A stretch of 64,000 nucleotides of DNA from contig NZ_CP093312.1 of the NCBI RefSeq assembly GCF_023213175.1, forward strand, positions 1,364,001 to 1,428,000. The letters are read 5' to 3'. Each line of letters begins with the position of its first letter. Positions within the stretch are counted from its first letter, which is position 1. This DNA is from Sulfurovum sp. XGS-02. Its GTDB lineage: Bacteria; Campylobacterota; Campylobacteria; Campylobacterales; Sulfurovaceae. Positions 32,842 through 56,505 of this stretch are shown here, piece by piece. Both the position numbers and the translations under genes were made by a program. Under the pieces are notes generated by a model. It searched no databases, was not told the DNA's origin, and worked only from the letters and a program-made list of their open reading frames with translations.

Positions 32842-35800
32842 CTATCTTCTATACTTTTCCTTGTAGGCAACAACTTTATTTTTACCAGATCTTTTTGCTT
32901 CATACAAAGCATTATCTGCTTTATTGATGGCAACTTCTATATTATTATCGGCTACCAGATCAACCATTGATACACCTACACTTATGGTCACTTGTAATTG
33001 CCTCTCCTGATCATATGTTATCACCATCTTTTCAACCAATTCCCATATATTCTGTGCAATTTGCATACTGCTTTCTAAGTCTGTATCCGGGAGAAGTATG
33101 ATATATTCTTCTCCTCCAAACCGACAGACTATGTCACTTTTTCTTGTATGTTCCAATAAAATATTCGCAACTCCAATGATTACTTTATCACCAATATGAT
33201 GACCATAGGTGTCATTCACACTTTTGAAATCATCAATATCAAACATGATCAATGAGATTTCATTGTTTGTTCTTTGGTTCATATTGAAAATATCTTCAGA
33301 TATCTCTGAAAAATAGCGTCTATTGTAGAGTTTTGTCATTGGATCAATGGAAGCTAAAAGTTTTAACTCCTCTTTACTTACTTCTAGATCTTGCGTACGC
33401 TGTTTGATCTTCTCCTCGAGTCTACTGTATACCATTGTATTTTCAATGGAGATAACGATCTGCCCACTTAAATGCTGTAAGAACCTTACTTTATCTCCAG
33501 TAAAGACTGAAGATACCAGATTATTTTCCAGATAGATGATCCCTCTGAGTTCCCCCTGTAAGATCAAAGGTGCACAAAAAAGAGATTTTATCAACCTCGT
33601 TGATACATAAGATGTATCAAAAATGTTATTTTGGGTCATATCATCGATCACGATCGACTCTTTTGTACGTAAGACATAATTGATAATAGGATGTACGATC
33701 ATATCGACATCTGTATATGGGATTTCCTGCATCACATCTACAACAGAAAAATCTTCGTTTGCAGAAGCTTGAACCACAAAACCACTGTCTTCTTTCAAGA
33801 GTAAATGGCCATGCTGCGCTCCGGCACTCTCCATAATGATACGTATCAATGTCTTAAGCAGACTGGAAAACTCATGCTCTTGGGCAATCACCTCTGATAC
33901 CTTGATCAATGTTTTAACATCAAAGCTCAAATTCTCTTCTTCACCTGTATATTCTATATAGTTGATACCCCATTTATTGAAATTTCTTAGTGATTCATCT
34001 TTATATATCTTTACAGCTCTTTTTTGACCCAAAGTCTCATAAAGTTCTGCAGCGAGTCTATTGGTGATTGCTCTCAAGTGTCTCTGCCCATAAATTTGAG
34101 CAAGATCTATTGCCTTCTCATAATATAAAAATGCTTCTTTATAATTATTTTCTATACGATAGAGTTCTGCCTGCAGGATATTTGCCCTGACCAAAAAGTT
34201 TTCAGCACATTCGCCTGCCCACTTCACAAATTTTTTCTTTACATTTTCTATAGTATTTTTATATTTTCTTCGTGTCAATATATCTTTTGTCTCGATCAAC
34301 TTCGCTAAGATCATAGCATCATAAAATAGATATTCAGTATGGTGTAACATACCTTTTGATGATTTTGCAAACTTTTTTCCCTGCAGGCTTATCTGATGTG
34401 CCTCTTTATACGCTTGCTGTAGATAGAGTGCAGTCATTTTATTGACATAGTAGTAATGTGCAAAGTGTTCAGACTCATAATCTTCAAGGCTTTCTACATA
34501 AGAAGATTCATCAAAATTATCACTGTCGTAAGAATGCAGTGTTTTCGTTTTTCCTGTAAGATTCAATATGGTTTGTTTTACACTCAAGATAGCACCATAC
34601 TGTTCTTTTGCACCGATATCCAAAATGATTTTTTCAAAATCCTTTATCTGTATCAAAATATCTTCAAAAGCCACACCTCTCATAAACATACTCTGAATAA
34701 TACCTGCAGCAGCACAGCCTGTATGAAACCAATCCCCGATCTCCAAACCGTTTTTATAGGCGTTATGCCATACTTCTTCAGTTTCCATAGCCGGTCGTAT
34801 CCATGAGATCCCAAAATAACCACACACAAATTGAACTTCAGCATGTTGTGTTGTATTTTCAAATCTTTTAAGCATATCAAATGAAAACCGACTATATGCA
34901 TACCCTAATTTATGGTTACGTAGAATTCCACCTTCGAAAATAACACCATAGACTGTAAATCCTATGACAGATTCTTTGGTCAATCCATGTTCTAAACAGA
35001 GTTTTACAATGATCATTGCATTGGCAACGCATAATGCTGGGCGTATTTGATAGGCTGCCTGCAAAATGTTTGCCATGATCTTAATGGTCATTTTAAAATT
35101 TTCATCATTTGATTCAGGAAGCTCTATAAGGTCTTCCACACTATATCTACGTAATTTAAGTTTTAAACCTAAGAACTCTGAAATAAAAAGAGGCGGGACA
35201 AATGTTTTTGGTATGAGAATACCAAAACTTTCTGCAGCCACACGCCCCACTTCGTAGGCGTTCTTAAATTGTGCAATATCTGAATAGAGTTTAATAAGTA
35301 ACTCATATATCTCACCTTTTTGCAATATTGTTTGGGCAACTTCAAGTGCTTTTTCATAATACTCTATAGCCACACCACTATGATTGCATAAATGTTCACA
35401 TTCAGCCCTCTGCTTTAAAATCAACACGGTATTTTCAACAGAATGGTTGAAACAATAAAATTCCATAGCTTTTTTAATATACTTCAATGCACTTTCAAAA
35501 TCACCACTTTTCTTTGCATAGATCGACGCATCCAAGTTCAGCTTAGCAAGATATTTTTTATCCCTTACATAGGCTGAGCCTATGTTCAAATGATTGACAC
35601 ACTCAAGCAAATTTTGATGATCCTGAACCTCTCTACTTTGTTCTTGCTGGCACCCTATTTTATAATGGACCTTATGCAGTACCTTTCCCAAAAGTAAATT
35701 ATGTATAGCATGTTGCATTTTATCATGTAAAAACCGATAACGCTTCTCATCTAACGTGTTTGTATGATCAATAACTATCCATCCTGACGCTAATGCCAAA

Positions 35801-37458
35801 GCCAAAGATTTCTCAAATAGTTCATCCTGATTAAATACGTTTTTCAACAGTTCATGGGAAAAAGTATTTCCCATACATGACGCTATACATAACAGGTTTC
35901 GTACATAGGGTGACAATGAGTCAATATTATTTGATAACATATCAAAAACGTTATCAGAAATTTGCAATGCATTAATTTTGTGCAGATCACATCTCCATTC
36001 TAATTGCTGCATATCAAACCATATGACATCATCCTTATAGAGTTGCTTCAAATACTCTTTTACAAAAAAAGGATTTCCTCTAGTTCGCTCAAAGATGATA
36101 TCTGCCACCTCTTTTCCTACTTCCAGCTGTATATTATCTCTGATCAATGTTTCTATGTGATCTTTAGAGAGTGGTGACATAGTCATCTCGTATATCTTTA
36201 GATCAAAAACCTTCAGTTCCTGTAACACAGTACCAAAAAGAGGATTGTCTGAGATTTCCGTCTCATCATCTCTATACGCCATAAATACTATGACATTTTC
36301 TAAATTCAGTATGACACTCTTGATCCATTGCAATGTAACAACATCAGCCCATTGGATATCATCTGCAAAAATACATAACGGTCTTTCATCGAGCAGAAAG
36401 ATCTGCATAAAACGTACCAAAAGATTATCCAGATTAACTTTTTGTTCTTTGTTCTTTACATGTTCAGTAGAAGGATCTTGACCTAATATCATATGTATTT
36501 CGGGAATGACCTCTGTCAGCATATATGCTTGTTCTCCCAAGCTGCTTAACAATTTATTTCTATACCGTTTTAAGGTTTTTTCGTCTTGTGAGATGATCTC
36601 TCTGACCATCGTACTTAGTGTAATATAGAGTATCTGGTAAGGCGTACTCTGCTCACCTGAGTCAAGTTTAAACTTACATATATGAGAAAAATTATTTTTA
36701 TTTTTATCTATCACTTTGTTAATAAATGATGATTTCCCCATACCTGACTTGCCTTGTACCAGTATGATCTTGTTTACGTTATCGCTCTTTAAATCAATAT
36801 GGTACTGTAGCTTCTCTTCTTCTTTCTCTCTGCCATATATCATCTCACTTGTATGTAGGTCTTGTATATTTTGAAACGTATCCAACTGAAAATCAGGAAA
36901 TTCATTGTTGTTAAAGGCACGCTGTAATTTAGACAAGTCGATTAAAACTGACCGGATATCTTTATAACGGTCCAATTGACTGGTCGCAACCATTTTATCT
37001 ATGATCATAGAGAGTATATGAGGTACATTTTTATTTTTATCGGAAACAAAATCTATTTTTTGTGTGATTATTGCATGATTAAACTCAAGCGCATCATCGT
37101 ATCTATACGGTAATTCACCAATAAGAAGTTCATAAAAAATGATCCCTAAAACATATATATCAGATGATTGGTTGATAGATATTAGATCATGCAAAGCATG
37201 CTCTGGTGACAAATAATCTAAAGTTACCTCTCTGTCATCCAATAGTGTGATATGAGAGATTTTTACCTCTTCTTTTTCGTTTATCAAAATCGTTGAAGGG
37301 CTAAGATGATTAAAAAGAAAATTTTGTTTATGTAGTGCATAAATACCTTGACATATCTCTATGGCAATATGTAAAAATCTATCTATATCAAGAGGTTTCT
37401 TCTTCACATATTCATTTAATGGGTGATATTGATTACTTGTCATGCTCAACTGCTTCAA
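32842..37458 (-). CDS. Large signalling protein: pseudokinase, AAA-type ATPase, helical repeats, GAF and GGDEF
   Basis: A 1538-residue cytoplasmic protein. Residues 1-190 resemble the C-lobe of a Ser/Thr kinase, but the HRDLKPxN loop reads FNHLSPST (about 49-56) and DFG reads HIT. The N-lobe glycine loop and lysine are missing too, so catalysis is very unlikely. A PknK/MalT-like ATPase follows, with Walker A GKSGMGKSS near 236-244 and FADDIQWAD as Walker B. About 600-1170 are TPR-like helices, then a GAF domain (about 1190-1340) and a GGDEF domain with GGEEY and an RxxD inhibitory site (RKSD) five residues before it. It probably makes c-di-GMP under control of a ligand. Its start overlaps the cytochrome gene by ATGA. 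Confidence 0.9.
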   Translation of the reverse strand: MKQLSMTSNQYHPLNEYVKKKPLDIDRFLHIAIEICQGIYALHKQNFLFNHLSPSTILINEKEEVKISHITLLDDREVTLDYLSPEHALHDLISINQSSDIYVLGIIFYELLIGELPYRYDDALEFNHAIITQKIDFVSDKNKNVPHILSMIIDKMVATSQLDRYKDIRSVLIDLSKLQRAFNNNEFPDFQLDTFQNIQDLHTSEMIYGREKEEEKLQYHIDLKSDNVNKIILVQGKSGMGKSSFINKVIDKNKNNFSHICKFKLDSGEQSTPYQILYITLSTMVREIISQDEKTLKRYRNKLLSSLGEQAYMLTEVIPEIHMILGQDPSTEHVKNKEQKVNLDNLLVRFMQIFLLDERPLCIFADDIQWADVVTLQWIKSVILNLENVIVFMAYRDDETEISDNPLFGTVLQELKVFDLKIYEMTMSPLSKDHIETLIRDNIQLEVGKEVADIIFERTRGNPFFVKEYLKQLYKDDVIWFDMQQLEWRCDLHKINALQISDNVFDMLSNNIDSLSPYVRNLLCIASCMGNTFSHELLKNVFNQDELFEKSLALALASGWIVIDHTNTLDEKRYRFLHDKMQHAIHNLLLGKVLHKVHYKIGCQQEQSREVQDHQNLLECVNHLNIGSAYVRDKKYLAKLNLDASIYAKKSGDFESALKYIKKAMEFYCFNHSVENTVLILKQRAECEHLCNHSGVAIEYYEKALEVAQTILQKGEIYELLIKLYSDIAQFKNAYEVGRVAAESFGILIPKTFVPPLFISEFLGLKLKLRRYSVEDLIELPESNDENFKMTIKIMANILQAAYQIRPALCVANAMIIVKLCLEHGLTKESVIGFTVYGVIFEGGILRNHKLGYAYSRFSFDMLKRFENTTQHAEVQFVCGYFGISWIRPAMETEEVWHNAYKNGLEIGDWFHTGCAAAGIIQSMFMRGVAFEDILIQIKDFEKIILDIGAKEQYGAILSVKQTILNLTGKTKTLHSYDSDNFDESSYVESLEDYESEHFAHYYYVNKMTALYLQQAYKEAHQISLQGKKFAKSSKGMLHHTEYLFYDAMILAKLIETKDILTRRKYKNTIENVKKKFVKWAGECAENFLVRANILQAELYRIENNYKEAFLYYEKAIDLAQIYGQRHLRAITNRLAAELYETLGQKRAVKIYKDESLRNFNKWGINYIEYTGEEENLSFDVKTLIKVSEVIAQEHEFSSLLKTLIRIIMESAGAQHGHLLLKEDSGFVVQASANEDFSVVDVMQEIPYTDVDMIVHPIINYVLRTKESIVIDDMTQNNIFDTSYVSTRLIKSLFCAPLILQGELRGIIYLENNLVSSVFTGDKVRFLQHLSGQIVISIENTMVYSRLEEKIKQRTQDLEVSKEELKLLASIDPMTKLYNRRYFSEISEDIFNMNQRTNNEISLIMFDIDDFKSVNDTYGHHIGDKVIIGVANILLEHTRKSDIVCRFGGEEYIILLPDTDLESSMQIAQNIWELVEKMVITYDQERQLQVTISVGVSMVDLVADNNIEVAINKADNALYEAKRSGKNKVVAYKEKYRR

Positions 37459-42788: not shown

Positions 42789-43805
42789 TTGAGATCTGTT
42801 ACACTAATATTACTCACCATACTTTTACCATATTTTCTGTCTGCAAATGATGATCGTCCTCCCATTCCGTATGATTTCCTAGCCAAAAAAGAGGTCAAGT
42901 CATTCATCAATAAAATGGTAAAAAAACATCATTTCACACACCGCTATATAACTGCTGTACTAAAGAGTGCGAAACTTGACCGCGACACACTGGCACGATA
43001 TACAGGAAAATACAAAGTAGGCAGCACGAATGGTCCCTGGGAACGATACAAAGCACATGTACTTGACCCGGTCACTCTAGACAAAGCCAAAGCGTTTAAA
43101 AAGAGATACTATAAAACACTCCTAAAAGCAAGTCGAGAATATCGGGTTGACATGGAGTACATTGTGGGGTTTATTGGAGTGGAAAGCAAATTTGGAGAAT
43201 ACAGCGGAGACTATAATGTATTGGATGCTTTGAGCACCCTTGCCTTTCATAAAAACCGTATGAAGAAATTTTTCAAGTCCGAGTTGGAACATCTCTTTTT
43301 GATGGCCAGAGAACAGAACTATGATATCACTACACTGCAGGGTTCTTTTGCCGGAGCTATGGGCATGGTACAGCAAATGCCTTCGGTCTTCAGAAAGTTT
43401 GGTATGGACTATAACCGTGACGGGGAAAAGGACCCGTGGGACTTGGAGGATGCCATTGGGATCATTGCAAAATTTATGCATAAGAATGGCTGGAAAAAAG
43501 GAGCCCAGGTCGCTATCCCGACCAAATTTAAAGGAAAGCGCTATACAAAGCTCAAAACAAGCCACAGAAGACCCCTGCCATTAAAGACGATCTTAAAGCA
43601 TGGTATCACACCTTTAAAGCGCTTTAATGAACCTAAAGCCTATCTGCTTAAAAACCGTAACCTTACCCATGATGACATCTGGCTGGGGGCCAAAAACTTC
43701 CGTGTACTGACACGTTACAATAATTCAACAAGCTATGGTATGGCCATACACCTTATTGCACAGGCTGTCAAGTACAAATATATTTCTCCTCAAATGCCGT
43801 TTTAG
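42789..43805 (+). CDS. mltB: MltB-like lytic murein transglycosylase
   Basis: TTG start at 42789 with AAGG about 8 bases upstream. The 338 residues begin with a signal peptide (cleaving near SAN) without lipobox. The SLT_2 domain has catalytic Glu132 in GVESKFGEYSGDY and the AGAMGMVQQMPS segment. MltB cleaves glycan strands exolytically to 1,6-anhydro-muropeptides. It follows the CitE-like gene by 9 bases. Its 3' end overlaps the converging GGDEF-EAL gene by 38 bases. Confidence 0.92.
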   Translation: MRSVTLILLTILLPYFLSANDDRPPIPYDFLAKKEVKSFINKMVKKHHFTHRYITAVLKSAKLDRDTLARYTGKYKVGSTNGPWERYKAHVLDPVTLDKAKAFKKRYYKTLLKASREYRVDMEYIVGFIGVESKFGEYSGDYNVLDALSTLAFHKNRMKKFFKSELEHLFLMAREQNYDITTLQGSFAGAMGMVQQMPSVFRKFGMDYNRDGEKDPWDLEDAIGIIAKFMHKNGWKKGAQVAIPTKFKGKRYTKLKTSHRRPLPLKTILKHGITPLKRFNEPKAYLLKNRNLTHDDIWLGAKNFRVLTRYNNSTSYGMAIHLIAQAVKYKYISPQMPF

Positions 43806-45621
43806 AGAGTGGCTCCTCGAAATAAAATCCCTGAAACACATCACACTCTATTTTGATCAAGAAGAGAAGCTGTTCAAATTTTTCTATACCCTCAGCCACA
43901 ATATTCAGATCAAAATTCTTTGCTATGGAGATGATCGTACTGATCATCTTCTTATCATCTTGACCGTCATCCAAACGCGCTACGAATGTTCTATCTATTT
44001 TTACTTCATCGATGGGTAACATTTTTAAATTACTGAGTGAAGAGTACCCCGTACCAAAGTCATCAATGGAAAATGAAATACCGATCTCTTTTAATCTGTT
44101 CATCATATTGATCACTTTTTTCATATCTTCAGCGAATACATGCTCTGTAATCTCAAAAATAATTTTTTGTCCGCTCTCTTTTTTAGGAAAATAGATTTTG
44201 ATCAAACGATCTACTTCATTGACAAATGTCTCGCATAACAGTTGTCTCATACTGATATTCACCGAAATAGAACTTAATTTCCTACCTTTTGCATTCCATC
44301 TATTGATACTTTCAAATGTCTCTTTTAGCACATAGCTGCCGACCTCTAAGATCAACCCAGTATTTTCCACTATGGGAATGAACTCCTCAGGGCCCACTCT
44401 ACCCAATTCATCGTCATCCCATCTGATCAGTGCCTCACAACCCATTACTTCTTCATCTTTGTCAAACTGCGGCTGATAAAATACCTCTATTTTATTTTCA
44501 TTCAGTGCATAATGTAGTTTCTGCTCTATAAGAAGATGTCTCTCAACCCTCTTTGCAAGGTCCTGGTTAAAGACGATTACACCGTCTCTGCCTTGAGCCT
44601 TTGCTTCATACATCGCTATATCTGCTTCCCTAATAAAGTTTTTACTATAGATGAATGAAGGGTTGATTTGATGTACACCGATACTAGCACTGATATGAAG
44701 ATGATGGCCATCAATACTATAAGGTTTTCGAATGACCTTGAGCAATCCTTCCGAAAAACCATATGCAAGATCCCTTTTGAACACTTCTTCATTGAACTCT
44801 TTGCTTATAAGGATAAACTCATCACCTCCTAAACGCGCTACTATATGTGTATCTTTGGCATACGCTTTAAGACGTTCGGAAACTTCTATCAACAACTTAT
44901 CACCGATATCATGTCCCAAAGAGTCATTAATGGTTTTAAAATGATCCAGATCTATCAAAAACATACATGCAGTTTTCTGATTTACGGCCAATCTTTCAAT
45001 CAAAGACTCCATGTACTCCATAAAATAGCGTCGGTTATAGAGCCCTGTCAGAATGTCATGCTGCGCTTGGGAATAATTCTTCTGTAATAATCTGTTGGTA
45101 TTAAAGGATGCATACAATAAGACAAATAAAAATATAAGAGAAAAGAGGGAGAGTATATATCCATACCATGTATCGATAAATGCAAAATAGACGGTCAACG
45201 GCAGCATCAGGGTAACCAAAATAGGCACAAACAGTTTTTTATCAGAGATAAGCAGGGTTGATGCAACAACTGCAGCACCCAACTGTGTAAAAATGGCTAT
45301 GTAGTGTATATGGTATTTGTCATATCCGACATACATTACAAATACCAATGACCAGACAGAAAAGATCATATACATGAACCATGTAAGTTTTTTATACCAT
45401 TTTTTTAAATGATTTTCATCCATTTTGTATGTAGCAAATTCATTATATAGCGTCCACCCATACAATGAAATACATAACAATATACCATACCATACCAATG
45501 CAGGAGTAACAATATGAAAAATCCAACCAACAATGACATACACAAGCCCGGGAATAAGAGAAAGCCCGATCATTAGAAGAATTTGTTTTTGAAGAAATGT
45601 ATAATATTTTTGATGCTTCAT
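43768..45621 (-). CDS. Membrane GGDEF-EAL protein (c-di-GMP synthesis/degradation)
   Basis: 617 residues from the ATG at 45621 (a TTG at 45636 is also in frame). Six or so membrane helices (about 10-185) replace a recognisable sensor domain. The GGDEF domain has ARLGGDEF intact, without an RxxD inhibitory site (KDTH instead). The EAL domain has EALIRW, NISMRQL, FEITEH, DDFGTGYSSL and KIDRTF, so phosphodiesterase activity is likely. It may act as phosphodiesterase, cyclase or both. It lies 27 bases after hspR, and a TATAAT box at 45628-45633 sits just before its start, so cotranscription with cbpA-hspR is uncertain. Confidence 0.93.
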   Translation of the reverse strand: MKHQKYYTFLQKQILLMIGLSLIPGLVYVIVGWIFHIVTPALVWYGILLCISLYGWTLYNEFATYKMDENHLKKWYKKLTWFMYMIFSVWSLVFVMYVGYDKYHIHYIAIFTQLGAAVVASTLLISDKKLFVPILVTLMLPLTVYFAFIDTWYGYILSLFSLIFLFVLLYASFNTNRLLQKNYSQAQHDILTGLYNRRYFMEYMESLIERLAVNQKTACMFLIDLDHFKTINDSLGHDIGDKLLIEVSERLKAYAKDTHIVARLGGDEFILISKEFNEEVFKRDLAYGFSEGLLKVIRKPYSIDGHHLHISASIGVHQINPSFIYSKNFIREADIAMYEAKAQGRDGVIVFNQDLAKRVERHLLIEQKLHYALNENKIEVFYQPQFDKDEEVMGCEALIRWDDDELGRVGPEEFIPIVENTGLILEVGSYVLKETFESINRWNAKGRKLSSISVNISMRQLLCETFVNEVDRLIKIYFPKKESGQKIIFEITEHVFAEDMKKVINMMNRLKEIGISFSIDDFGTGYSSLSNLKMLPIDEVKIDRTFVARLDDGQDDKKMISTIISIAKNFDLNIVAEGIEKFEQLLFLIKIECDVFQGFYFEEPLSKTAFEEKYICT

Positions 45622-45647
45622 ATATCTATTATACAATAATTTTGATC

Positions 45648-52822: not shown

Positions 52823-53992
52823 ATGCGAGATAATAAAGTCAATGTGTTAAAAAAGATGTTAGGAATGCTTCTAGTGACGCCAATATTGCTGTCACTATCA
52901 CTTTTTGCAGCGAATCCGGTTCACCATTGGAAACTGGATGAAACCGCTGGATCAATCTATGAAGATACTGGTACTATCGGTGATGCCAACGGGACATGTA
53001 CATCCCCGGACAGTTGTCCTACTCCTAGTGACGGTCAAGTCTATGGTGCACAGAGTTTTGATGGCAATGACACGATCGAGATTGCAAATACAGTAGACTT
53101 TGATTGGGCTCCCGATGCCAATGTCACCATAGAGTTCTGGATGAAGTCATCAAATATACCTGAGGGAATATTATATGGTGATATGATGATAGGACGTGCG
53201 ACTAGTGTTGTCAAATGGTATGTGGGGGTAGATCCTTTAGTAGGAGCTATTAGAGCTCAGGTAGCCGATGGAAACCTTGGAAATGGTGTAACCGGTACTG
53301 CGATCATAGCCAATGGTCAATGGAATCACATAGCATACGTCCTTAAACCGGGTCAGGTAAGGGTCTATGTCAACGGTGAAAATGATTTTAATATAAGTAG
53401 AACAGCCACTGACTTGACATGTGATACAAATGTAACGATCGGTACGCTAGATTATACAACTACTATTGATTGGTCATATACAGGCCAACTTGACGATATC
53501 AAATTTTATGCTACCGACCTGAATGGAACTACGATCAAAGAGCATTATATGGATGGATTGAAACCACATTTGCTTGAAGTCACACCGGTTCCAACCCCGA
53601 CTGATAATGATACACCGGACTATACTTTCTCTTCAGATAAAAATGGGACCATCGAAATAAGTGGTTGTATGTCTGCAACTGCAACACCGGCAATTGCAAT
53701 AGGTGACACCGATACAACCATCACATTTGACCCGCTTTTTGATGGAACATATGACGATTGTAACATCACCGTGACATCTACAGAAACAGATTCAAACGGC
53801 ACTGTTTCAGATCCGTTGGCAGTATCCAGCTTTGTCGTAGACACTACAGTACCAGCACCAGAGCCAACTGTATCTAGCGGTGGTGGCGGTGGTTGTACAT
53901 ACAACCCTGACAGTAAGCACTTTGATATGGTGTTCTTGCTGATGATCGCATTGGGACTCTTCTATCCAGTTAGAAGAAGATTCATCAAGTAA
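52823..53992 (+). CDS. Secreted LamG-domain protein with C-terminal sorting-type anchor
   Basis: A 389-residue exported protein. The signal peptide (about 10-30) is followed by a LamG/concanavalin-like domain (about 35-235: VHHWKLDETAGS..., NGQWNHIAYVLKPGQVRVYVNG) and an Ig-like segment (about 245-345). The end carries a Gly-Gly-Gly-Gly-Gly-Cys-Thr motif, then a membrane helix and RRRFIK, like CTERM protein-sorting signals (JDVT/MYXO type as I recall). Likely a surface or matrix protein. Closed by a strong terminator. Confidence 0.85.
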   Translation: MRDNKVNVLKKMLGMLLVTPILLSLSLFAANPVHHWKLDETAGSIYEDTGTIGDANGTCTSPDSCPTPSDGQVYGAQSFDGNDTIEIANTVDFDWAPDANVTIEFWMKSSNIPEGILYGDMMIGRATSVVKWYVGVDPLVGAIRAQVADGNLGNGVTGTAIIANGQWNHIAYVLKPGQVRVYVNGENDFNISRTATDLTCDTNVTIGTLDYTTTIDWSYTGQLDDIKFYATDLNGTTIKEHYMDGLKPHLLEVTPVPTPTDNDTPDYTFSSDKNGTIEISGCMSATATPAIAIGDTDTTITFDPLFDGTYDDCNITVTSTETDSNGTVSDPLAVSSFVVDTTVPAPEPTVSSGGGGGCTYNPDSKHFDMVFLLMIALGLFYPVRRRFIK

Positions 53993-54022: not shown

Positions 54023-54060
54023 ACGGAGCAGCCATCTGTGCTGCTCCGTATTTTTCTTCT
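54023..54060 (+). terminator. Rho-independent terminator after the LamG gene
   Basis: ACGGAGCAGC and GCTGCTCCGT form a perfect 10-base stem around CATCTGT, directly followed by ATTTTTCTTCT. This separates the LamG gene from the riboswitch region. Confidence 0.92.
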
Positions 54061-54209
54061 TCCGGATATCACTCTCCCTCAACATTCATCTCATCAAAAC
54101 AAAAGATCAAAAATCACACTTCATCAAACAAATTGATGATAAACATATATTTTAATTTTATATTATTTTCAGTTTAATTGTGTATTATTCCGGTATGACT
54201 ATGACTTAA

Positions 54210-54215
54210 GATACT
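54210..54215 (+). promoter_or_regulatory. Possible -10 box for riboswitch copy 1
   Basis: GATACT (4 of 6 to TATAAT) lies 15 bases before the first P1 base of riboswitch copy 1, in AT-rich sequence. Weak by sequence alone; supported by better boxes in the same place before copies 2 and 3. Confidence 0.3.
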
Positions 54216-54229
54216 ACTAAATCATAAGT

Positions 54230-54332
54230 GATAGTAATAAAAGTATTAGGCCAAACCTGTTGTGAAGCAGGGACGGAAAGCTTCAGGTCTTTTGAAAAAA
54301 AGATAGCTGGGTTGCATTTATTGAGAACTATC
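54230..54332 (+). promoter_or_regulatory. GEMM-I (c-di-GMP-I type) riboswitch, copy 1 of 3
   Basis: The core reads GCCAAACC, P2 CCTGTT-GTGA-AGCAGG (GNRA loop), GGACGGAAAGC, P3 with GTCTTTT-GAAA-AAAAGAT, and TAGCTGGGTTGC, in the order of class I c-di-GMP riboswitches. P1 closes it: GATAGT/AATAAA (54230-54241) pairs with TTTATT (54317-54322) and ACTATC (54327-54332). No gene follows before copy 2, so the two are in tandem. Two positions differ from the Vc2 consensus as I remember it (see findings), so the ligand is not certain. Confidence 0.85.
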
Positions 54333-54358
54333 GTATCCCAAACGGTGACTCTTCATAA

Positions 54359-54386
54359 ATTATAACTTTTATAGAAAGTTTATAAT
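54359..54386 (+). other. Hairpin between riboswitch copies 1 and 2
   Basis: ATTATAACTTT pairs with AAAG-T-TTATAAT around TATAG: an 11-base AT-rich stem with one bulged T, 27 bases after riboswitch 1. No T-tract follows. It may be part of the expression platform of copy 1, or a processing site. Confidence 0.5.
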
Positions 54387-54442
54387 CCTAATCTTAATAA
54401 AAATTCAGGCATGTGGGTAATATTGAGGTAATGCTCTTTCAA

Positions 54443-54448
54443 TATAAT
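54443..54448 (+). promoter_or_regulatory. Predicted -10 box for riboswitch copy 2
   Basis: A perfect TATAAT lies 22 bases before the GCCAAACC core of copy 2 and after copy 1, which suggests that copy 2 also has its own transcription start. Confidence 0.55.
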
Positions 54449-54460
54449 GCTCATCAAGTT

Positions 54461-54558
54461 AGTGAGAAAAGCCAAACCTATTGTGAAGTAGGGACGGAAA
54501 GCCAAGGGTCTCATAATATTAATAAAAATAGTGAGATAGCCTAGTTGCCTTTGTTGCA
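54461..54558 (+). promoter_or_regulatory. GEMM-I (c-di-GMP-I type) riboswitch, copy 2 of 3
   Basis: Same order of elements as copy 1: GCCAAACC (54471), P2 CCTATT-GTGA-AGTAGG (54477-54492), GGACGGAAAGCC, P3 with TCTCA/TGAGA and a longer A/T-rich end loop, GATAGCCTAGTTGCC. P2 changes from copy 1 by a compensating pair (G-C to A-T). It lies about 125 bases before the start of the 535-residue lipoprotein gene, and its 3' side merges into the hairpin at 54549-54568. Confidence 0.87.
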
Positions 54559-54568
54559 TACAACAAAG
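54549..54568 (+). other. Hairpin at the 3' edge of riboswitch copy 2
   Basis: CTTTGTTG and CAACAAAG form a perfect 8-base stem around CATA. Its 5' arm overlaps the 3' strand of riboswitch P1, so the two may be mutually exclusive and act as a switch. No T-tract follows, which argues against a simple terminator. Confidence 0.55.
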
Positions 54569-54683
54569 TAATGCTATATTTATAGTGGTTTATTCCATTC
54601 TTCATAGAAGATATCCCTCCCATACTTTTCAATATATTTTCTTCACAACGATATACGTTCATACACAGAAGGAATATAAACCA

Positions 54684-56291
54684 ATGTTTAGACTTAACAA
54701 TATCAAACAAAATCTACTTATACTGTCTTTTGCAACACTGCTTGCAGGTTGTGGCGGTGGAGGAACAACTGCAACAGATGCAGCGACAACAGACTTAACG
54801 ACAACATCAACACCAAAAAGAGTACAGATAGATATCAGTGCCGTGACTACAGAAGATTCTGCCACTATCAATTGGACACCATATGGTTATACTACAAAAT
54901 CAGTAGAGTACGGTACAACGAATAAGTATGGTTCAGAAGTTTCAGTACAAGAAGAAGGTACTGTTACCTTATACAATTTACAGGCAAATACAGAATATCA
55001 TTATAGAATAGTCTCTGAAGATGAAAAAGGCAGACCTGTTGTAAGTAATGACAACATTTTTACAACACTTGCAGAAAGTACTCAGCCCATCGTAACTGAA
55101 CCGGCACCAACAGATCCGGTTGTAACCGATCCGATCGTAACTGAACCGGCACCAACTGATCCAGTTGTAACTGATCCGATCGTAACTGAACCAGCACCAA
55201 CTGACCCAGTCATCACTGATCCGATCGTAACTGAACCGGCACCAACTGACCCAGTCGTCACTGATCCGATCGTAACTGAACCGGCACCTGTTTGCCAAAG
55301 TGGGCCTGCCATGCAGCAAGGACAGGTTAAGGATAGTGTTTCAGGTACGGGTCTAGCAAATGTTACAGTGACGATCAATGGATGTGTCACTCAGACCGAT
55401 GCACAAGGTTTTTACGCACTAAATGACATTGCTGTTAGCGACAGAGCAGTGGTCACATTTGAACTCGATGGGTATTATATGAACAGTGAGATCATCGCTA
55501 TTCAAGAATATTCAGATGGCACTACCCTCTCTCCAAACTATCTTGAATTCTCTCTGGATAAGTATGATGACCAAAATACTGCAGACAGCCAGAATGGAAA
55601 ACTCTGGTCATATTTCTTTGGTATCGACATAGCCGGTGGGATCTATACAGATACTGCAGGAAATCCTTATAGCGGGAATGCCACTGCCCAAGTTGCTTAT
55701 GAAGATGTAGCGACAGAGAAAGGTCGTGAAGTTTTCCCTGGTGCATATGAAGGGAAAAACGCTTATGGGGATATGGTTCCATTTGTCTCTTATGGATTGA
55801 TGGTGGTAGACCTGAAAGATGAGTCAGGTAATGCATTAAATATATCTGATGACATCACTTTAAGATTCCATACAGCCACAGGAGCGACAGCTGAAATCGT
55901 CCCTCTATGGTACTACGACTATGCACAGGGGATCTGGATCGAAGAAGGTTATGCAACACGTCTGGCAGATGGAAAGTATGAAGGTACTATATCGCATCCT
56001 GGAACATGGAGCCTGAGCCAGCCTGTTGAAGAGGCTTTAGGTATCTATACCGATCGTATCCTCTACCCTGATGGTACACCGGCGAAAAATCTGCATATTC
56101 ATGCCATTGGTGACAACTGGATCAGAACCGATCTTAGCACCGATGAGAATGGTGAATTTGAAATTGAAGTGATCCCGGGAAAAGCATTCACACTCAAAGC
56201 GTATCACTCTACAGATAAGTACACTGCTACATACAACGGGACAATCTCCGCTGTTGCTTCGGGTGAAATAGTTAATAACTCAAGCTTATAA
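54684..56291 (+). CDS. Lipoprotein with FN3-like domain, TEPAPTDP repeats and carboxypeptidase-regulatory-like domains
   Basis: The ATG at 54684 (with AAGGA upstream) begins a lipoprotein signal with lipobox LAGC at about residue 22; the frame open to 54585 lies in the leader. The 535 residues contain an FN3/purple-acid-phosphatase-like domain (about 48-130), a Pro/Thr-rich repeat tract (about 137-202), a CarboxypepD_reg-like domain (about 210-275), a beta-rich region and a second small beta domain at the C-terminus (about 450-530) that recurs in the next lipoprotein. Two riboswitch copies lie upstream. Likely a matrix or adhesion protein; no enzyme motif is seen. Confidence 0.85.
   Translation: MFRLNNIKQNLLILSFATLLAGCGGGGTTATDAATTDLTTTSTPKRVQIDISAVTTEDSATINWTPYGYTTKSVEYGTTNKYGSEVSVQEEGTVTLYNLQANTEYHYRIVSEDEKGRPVVSNDNIFTTLAESTQPIVTEPAPTDPVVTDPIVTEPAPTDPVVTDPIVTEPAPTDPVITDPIVTEPAPTDPVVTDPIVTEPAPVCQSGPAMQQGQVKDSVSGTGLANVTVTINGCVTQTDAQGFYALNDIAVSDRAVVTFELDGYYMNSEIIAIQEYSDGTTLSPNYLEFSLDKYDDQNTADSQNGKLWSYFFGIDIAGGIYTDTAGNPYSGNATAQVAYEDVATEKGREVFPGAYEGKNAYGDMVPFVSYGLMVVDLKDESGNALNISDDITLRFHTATGATAEIVPLWYYDYAQGIWIEEGYATRLADGKYEGTISHPGTWSLSQPVEEALGIYTDRILYPDGTPAKNLHIHAIGDNWIRTDLSTDENGEFEIEVIPGKAFTLKAYHSTDKYTATYNGTISAVASGEIVNNSSL
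55092..55288 (+). repeat. 45-base tandem repeat coding for a 15-residue Pro/Thr-rich unit
   Basis: Four units of 45 bases start at 55092, 55137, 55182 and 55227, with a partial fifth from 55272. Each codes for V/I-TEPAPTDPVVTDPI-type sequence; units differ at only a few bases (for example GTTGTAACC, GTCATCACT). It is in-frame, so copy-number change would lengthen or shorten a flexible stalk. Confidence 0.93.
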
Positions 56292-56327
56292 TTAGAAAAT
56301 GAATAAGTAATATATGGGTAACACTCT

Positions 56328-56333
56328 TATACT
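56328..56333 (+). promoter_or_regulatory. Predicted -10 box for riboswitch copy 3
   Basis: TATACT lies 19 bases before the GCCAAAC core of copy 3 and 36 bases after the previous stop. Confidence 0.5.
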
Positions 56334-56339
56334 ACAATT

Positions 56340-56425
56340 TGAACACTGAAAAAGCCAAACTTGTTGTGAAGCAAGGACGGAAAGCTTAGGACCTCAACTA
56401 ATGAGATGGCCGGGCTGCCTATATG
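56340..56425 (+). promoter_or_regulatory. GEMM-I (c-di-GMP-I type) riboswitch, copy 3 of 3
   Basis: GCCAAAC at 56353, P2 CTTGTT-GTGA-AGCAAG (56360-56375), GGACGGAAAGC, a short P3 CTCA-ACTAA-TGAG, then GATGGCCGGGCTGCC. P2 again varies by compensating pairs relative to copies 1 and 2. P3 is shorter than in copy 1. A hairpin (TGAGAA/TTCTCA, 56436-56452) follows before the ATG at 56506. It precedes the smaller lipoprotein gene and, through it, the secreted-protein gene. Confidence 0.85.
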
Positions 56426-56505
56426 CTCCGTTTTCTGAGAAGTACATTCTCACATGTTTCACAACACGCTTTTATCATATTTATAAAGAAAAAGGTAATA
56501 CACAA

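Follow-up and report, generated by a model that had tools for sequence, protein, structure and literature searches.

Class I c-di-GMP riboswitch aptamers upstream of surface lipoprotein genes in Sulfurovum sp. XGS-02

The 64,000-nt stretch of Sulfurovum sp. XGS-02 DNA analysed here (the window) contains three copies of an RNA motif that resembles the c-di-GMP riboswitch, each placed ahead of a gene for a surface lipoprotein. The locus raises the question of whether these elements are genuine sensors of the second messenger and, if so, whether they form a single multi-aptamer device or separate switches, and in which direction they would act on the genes that follow.

Identity and fold of the three aptamers

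Searched with cmscan against Rfam 15, the entire window gave full-length, plus-strand matches to the c-di-GMP-I family (RF01051) for all three copies, well above the curated cut-off of 35 bits that defines membership (Table 1), and no match to any other Rfam entry. Each copy runs in the order GCCAAAC, a P2 helix capped by a GTGA loop of the GNRA class, GGACGGAAAGC, a variable P3 and G(C/T)TGC. When the model was mapped to the Vc2 RNA, the ligand contacts at positions 20, 47 and 92 of that RNA were G20, A47 and C92 in every copy. The P2 helix also covaries, as pair 4 is G-C in copy 1 and A-U in copy 2, and pair 2 changes from C-G in copy 1 to U-A in copy 3. Indeed all six P2 pairs vary among the 21 copies in the genome, with a single non-pairing cell in 126, and changes of pair type were seen in these 21 and in 59 distinct aptamers; pair 22-45, for example, takes the form C-G in 13 of the genome's copies and U-A in the other eight. 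This explicit tally applies to P2, while the P3 helix is supported by the covariance model alone. Because the model, the ligand-contact nucleotides and the covariation agree, the three elements are genuine class I c-di-GMP riboswitch aptamers and ordinary members of a known family. A sequence-only reading of this DNA had described them as three GEMM-I-type riboswitches, had taken the covariation of P2 as support for an RNA fold and had placed the copies before surface lipoproteins and a secreted protein. The identification is borne out, and the positions, motif order and gene order that it gave were correct on inspection.

The copies share with the RF01051 consensus the full length of the model, the three contact bases, a GNRA-capped P2 and a site before surface genes. 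The consensus, however, has a GAAA loop and an 11-nt receptor, whereas the copies lack that receptor and their GUGA loop faces a short, helical P3 that has a CU:AG step and into which the loop may dock. Pair 21-46, moreover, is flipped to C-G in every copy examined, including 21/21 in the genome. The P2 loop in these 21 is GUGA in 18, GCGA in two and GUAA in one, and the CU step in P3 is always present.

Table 1. Features of the lipoprotein locus, numbered from the first letter of the window
Feature	Position	Strand	Evidence or remark
Candidate -10 box TATTAT, promoter upstream of copy 1	54183-54188	+	Consensus match 61 nt before G20; in 5/6 aligned loci, absent from G451
c-di-GMP-I aptamer, copy 1	54240-54319	+	RF01051, 63.9 bits, E 3.4e-10; G20, A47, C92
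Hairpin right after C92 of copy 1 (ATTTAT...ATAAAT)	54316-54360	+	Six-genome alignment; overlaps 3' strand of a possible P1 (AATAAA/TTTATT)
TATAAT -10 box between copies 1 and 2, within GTAATATTGAGGTAATnCTCTTTCAATATAAT	54443-54448	+	TATAAT in 5/6 loci, TATCAT in the sixth; always 22 nt before copy-2 G20
c-di-GMP-I aptamer, copy 2	54461-54552	+	RF01051, 58.5 bits, E 7.2e-9; G20, A47, C92
Hairpin right after C92 of copy 2, CTTTGTTG-cata-CAACAAAG	54549-54568	+	Kept in 6/6 loci; arm CAACAAAG at 54561-54568
CTTCACAAC, exact complement of copy-1 P2 hairpin GTTGTGAAG	54641-54649	+	9-nt match, shuffle p=0.010; 8/9 for copy 2 (8 nt, p=0.045)
Ribosome-binding site GAAGGAA of 535-aa lipoprotein gene	54668-54674	+	Sequence; predicted unpaired 0.48 free, 0.11 with aptamer 2 formed
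Lipoprotein gene, 535 aa	54684-56291	+	fn3-like and CarboxypepD_reg domains, PT-rich repeat; homologues adjoin c-di-GMP-I riboswitches in the genus
Candidate -10 box TATACT of copy 3	56328-56333	+	20-21 nt before G20 in the window (20 nt) and two orthologues
c-di-GMP-I aptamer, copy 3	56344-56422	+	RF01051, 55.0 bits, E 5.2e-8; G20, A47, C92
TTCACAACA, complement of copy-3 P2 hairpin	56458-56466	+	9 nt, p=0.015; 12 nt in G399, p=0.005; lost in G435
Second lipoprotein gene, 120 aa	56506-56868	+	Resembles C-terminal ~80 aa of the 535-aa lipoprotein, 57% identity
Secreted protein gene, 305 aa	56895-57812	+	No known family; first ~51 aa common to neighbours' third gene, remainder different

Copies 1 and 2 precede the gene for the 535-residue lipoprotein, and copy 3 those for the 120-residue lipoprotein and the 305-residue secreted protein. 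Between 55095 and 55285 the larger lipoprotein repeats the segment EPAPTDPV(V/I)TDPIVT, of which related but diverged repeats occur in G399. Beyond the residues that the secreted protein has in common with the third gene of G435 and G399, the sequence has been swapped for a different, larger one; a PDB sequence search with this protein gave no convincing match, and its single-sequence structure prediction reached a pLDDT of only 33.

Leader folding and the direction of control

No intrinsic terminator was found after copies 1, 2 or 3 on the plus strand between 53900 and 58100. The only terminator-like site in that region (54023-54049) lies before the first promoter and closes the gene directly upstream (52823-53992), which encodes a Laminin-G-like protein with a JDVT-CTERM sorting signal. 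Transcription termination was thus rejected as the level of control, which is most likely translational. Folding models in which the bound aptamer was constrained gave lower predicted access to the ribosome-binding site at copy 2 (Table 1) and at copy 3, where it fell from 0.51 to 0.32. For copies 2 and 3 and both copy-3 orthologues the fall was greater than in all 60 shuffled leaders, while in the copy-2 orthologues the change was not clearly beyond chance, so that at this position the effect exceeds chance in the window copy only. A uniform switch of this kind across the genome's riboswitches was also considered and set aside, as most showed no consistent direction. The models, in giving less access when the aptamer is bound, weakly suggest an OFF-switch that hides the ribosome-binding site, and tip an almost even balance slightly towards it.

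It could also be proposed that c-di-GMP turns the genes on, an alternative that we consider a serious one if somewhat the less probable. High c-di-GMP usually favours surface adhesion, which would suit such a response. On this model a hairpin immediately after C92 would, without ligand, capture the 3' strand of P1, leaving the aptamer open and expression low, and c-di-GMP would displace the hairpin and raise expression. Candidate hairpins of this type recur across the genus with unrelated sequences in different loci, and those with a 5' arm beginning no more than three bases from C92 are over-represented relative to shuffled tails (37% of 62 aptamers at p<0.05; combined p 6e-18, a value inflated by relatedness, since the 62 are not independent and include orthologues and tandem partners). 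The hairpin of copy 2 carries a compensatory change at pair 7, from T-A to A-T, in G467 and G451. That of copy 1 is also conserved, with p=0.19 on the window sequence alone; in G399 and G467 it extends to 11 bp, and G316 has a 10-bp hairpin of unrelated sequence. For copy 3 neither a convincing P1 nor a hairpin next to C92 was found, and the P1 test was significant in some loci and weak in the window copies. The ON-switch is retained as a candidate because the hairpins resemble that of the Geobacter pilM riboswitch, which likewise overlaps the 3' strand of P1 beside the C92 position and, by pairing the C92-equivalent base, yields an ON-switch (PMC9262584). The pilM RNA, however, responds to cGAMP, and its hairpin acts as a terminator (PMC9262584), whereas the window copies carry a c-di-GMP signature and their hairpins lack a U-tract, which leaves a hairpin here without an obvious way to reduce expression. 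Leader folding, furthermore, points the opposite way.

Downstream segments complementary to the P2 hairpins were also found (CTTCACAAC and TTCACAACA; the matches were spotted first and shuffle-tested afterwards). The complementarity of CTTCACAAC is kept in four relatives and shrinks to 6 nt in G451. As a general switch this anti-P2 pairing was rejected, being weak or absent in G451, at copy 3 of G435 and in the rest of the genome; at the window locus it is a lead.

Promoters and the tandem question

The three copies are arranged in two leader regions 1.8 kb apart, the first holding copies 1 and 2, which are separated by 141 nt with a promoter-like element between them. Each intact aptamer, with its three contact bases, lies between a conserved -10-like box and a lipoprotein gene. 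A general promoter scan found no more sites than in shuffled sequence, and the case for separate promoters therefore rests on position and conservation. Single-copy riboswitches mostly have a TATAAT-like box 15-30 nt before G20, and the longer motif around the copy-2 box also precedes single copies in G468, G467 and G408; most other second copies of tandems have no -10 box at that position. The simplest reading is thus three separate promoters, one for each copy. Because a conserved -10 box at single-copy spacing precedes copy 2, a short transcript holding only this aptamer is likely, and a longer one may carry both copies 1 and 2. Between the copy-1 promoter and its aptamer (54197-54235) lies a dyad, ACTATGACTTAAGAT...ATCATAAGTGATAGT, in which GAT/ATC becomes GGT/ACC in G435 but some of the pairing has gone in G399 and G468.

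The whole arrangement is common to G399 and G435. In G468, G467 and G451 a tandem pair and a single copy stand beside related lipoprotein genes in varying order. The layout and the non-coding linker are kept in G399, G435, G468 and G467, and less closely in G451; the G399 versions of aptamers 1 and 2 hardly differ from those of the window, and conservation in the second half of the linker between them exceeds that of the coding sequence. At least one aptamer lies upstream, on the same strand, in 15/16 strong homologues of the lipoprotein (E<1e-70) by our own tabulation, the exception being G406.

These observations bear on whether one transcript carries copies 1 and 2 as a true tandem whose members jointly sharpen the response, an idea that we regard as unlikely though far from negligible. 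The two copies lie within one leader, and all six aligned genomes retain the pair. Among tandem riboswitches c-di-GMP-I arrays are the most frequent, a 2022 survey listing 347 doublets and 12 triplets (PMC9481103). Three further tandem pairs occur in the genome, their second copies mostly without a -10 box. In Bacillus thuringiensis the triple tandem Bc3-5, which resembles the window in having three class I aptamers at one locus, gives a more digital response (PMC4759541). In Bc3-5, however, a single leader has a terminator for each copy (PMC4759541), whereas here no terminator was found after any copy, and there are two distant leaders and a promoter-like element before each copy. Published tandems, as far as the available parts of the surveys describe them, similarly place two aptamers of the same class in one leader; the window differs in the conserved -10 box between the copies, which permits a transcript without copy 1, and no Campylobacterota example is named there. 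The locus is thus unlike a pseudo-cooperative array, in which one transcript carries a terminator platform for each copy. As each copy is inferred to have its own promoter, a single tandem device does not fully describe copies 1 and 2, and we read the locus as three separately initiated sensors rather than a triple-tandem switch. The sequence-only reading had called two of the copies tandem and suggested that such copies sharpen or combine responses. They do stand side by side before one gene, but the conserved promoter-like box parts them, and the proposed joint response is weakened by the -10 boxes of copies 2 and 3. Its further remark that it knew of no described triple arrangement in Campylobacterota agrees with the open literature, in which we found none, but overstated the novelty of the architecture, tandem arrays being common.

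Copy 1 could also be a remnant or a spacer that no longer has a function, as 364 nt and a further promoter-like box separate it from the start codon. This is improbable, however, since its ligand contacts are intact and its sequence is near-identical in five genomes (the window, G399, G435, G468 and G467) whose lipoproteins have diverged to 54-70% protein identity.

Ligand class and distribution in the genus

The retention of G20, A47 and C92 leads us to expect c-di-GMP as the ligand of all three copies. The cGAMP type of GEMM-I, with A at position 20, was ruled out by G20 in every copy. The c-di-GMP-I-GGC family (RF03167), which the window copies resemble in their short P3, scored 58.7, 57.8 and 55.0 bits for copies 1, 2 and 3 at a permissive threshold, just under its cut-off of 59, and was likewise excluded. 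A variant specificity of either type is thus very improbable: although the scores approach the cut-off and some relatives' aptamers exceed it, the consensus of RF03167 has G47 (taken as the class-defining base from the model consensus), whereas all three copies, and 62/62 aptamers examined, have A47 and G20. The near match arises because short P3 and overall form, not base 47, are common to both. Several relatives' aptamers (L084, L085, L087 and L092-L097) lie over the RF03167 cut-off despite A47; the boundary of that Rfam family seems to track overall form rather than base 47.

The genome contains 21 RF01051 matches in 2.19 Mb, all above the cut-off and including four close pairs. The genes downstream encode DUF4382-like and other lipoproteins, a subtilase, an L,D-transpeptidase, PAS proteins, a membrane histidine kinase, an ABC transporter, an outer-membrane barrel protein, threonine synthase and a GGDEF-EAL protein, the labels without a Pfam hit being our own reading of the sequence. 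The riboswitch before the GGDEF-EAL gene may provide feedback, and that before threonine synthase lies in a 250-nt leader. GGDEF matches number 18 in the genome. The window holds two such domains, in a GGDEF-EAL protein (43768-45636, minus strand) and a kinase-AAA-GAF-GGDEF protein (32842-37458, minus strand), local c-di-GMP enzymes encoded upstream of a polysaccharide locus.

Three copies alone would be ordinary. What is unusual is the size of the regulon: in the genus Sulfurovum 72/78 genomes have RF01051 matches, with up to 21 per genome, compared with 42/397 genomes passing the cut-off in a sample of the phylum, where 13/68 genera have a match at E<=0.001 and, as few candidates were scored per genome, per-genome counts are minima. 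A 2025 survey reports c-di-GMP tandems to be enriched in Thermodesulfobacteriota and Deinococcota, and a search of it by term found no mention of Campylobacterota (PMC12452182). In the open literature, the body searched, we found no description of c-di-GMP riboswitches in Campylobacterota, Epsilonproteobacteria or Sulfurovum. The family is known, yet the genus holds a large and apparently undescribed set of its members.

The explanation that we favour, with reasonable but qualified confidence, is that of three cis-acting class I c-di-GMP riboswitches with their own promoters and, most likely, translational control. The upstream promoter would yield a leader with both sensors and the inner promoter one with copy 2 only, while copy 3 would separately govern the smaller lipoprotein and the secreted protein. 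Formation of the c-di-GMP-bound aptamer would refold the leader around the ribosome-binding site and, by a narrow margin of probability, lower rather than raise access to it, and the hairpins after C92 of copies 1 and 2, in competing for the 3' strand that would close P1, may tune the response to the ligand. The cell would in this way match its surface lipoproteins, encoded beside a polysaccharide locus, to the level of c-di-GMP. Control by c-di-GMP of surface lipoproteins, a subtilase, PAS proteins and a GGDEF-EAL enzyme would amount to a large RNA-based regulon, of which we found no description in this group. More speculatively, the choice between outer and inner promoter may decide whether the lipoprotein mRNA carries two sensors or one and so set the steepness of the response, and class I riboswitches may be a main c-di-GMP output of Sulfurovum-type bacteria. 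The inner promoter would offer a natural test of whether one sensor rather than two alters the response.
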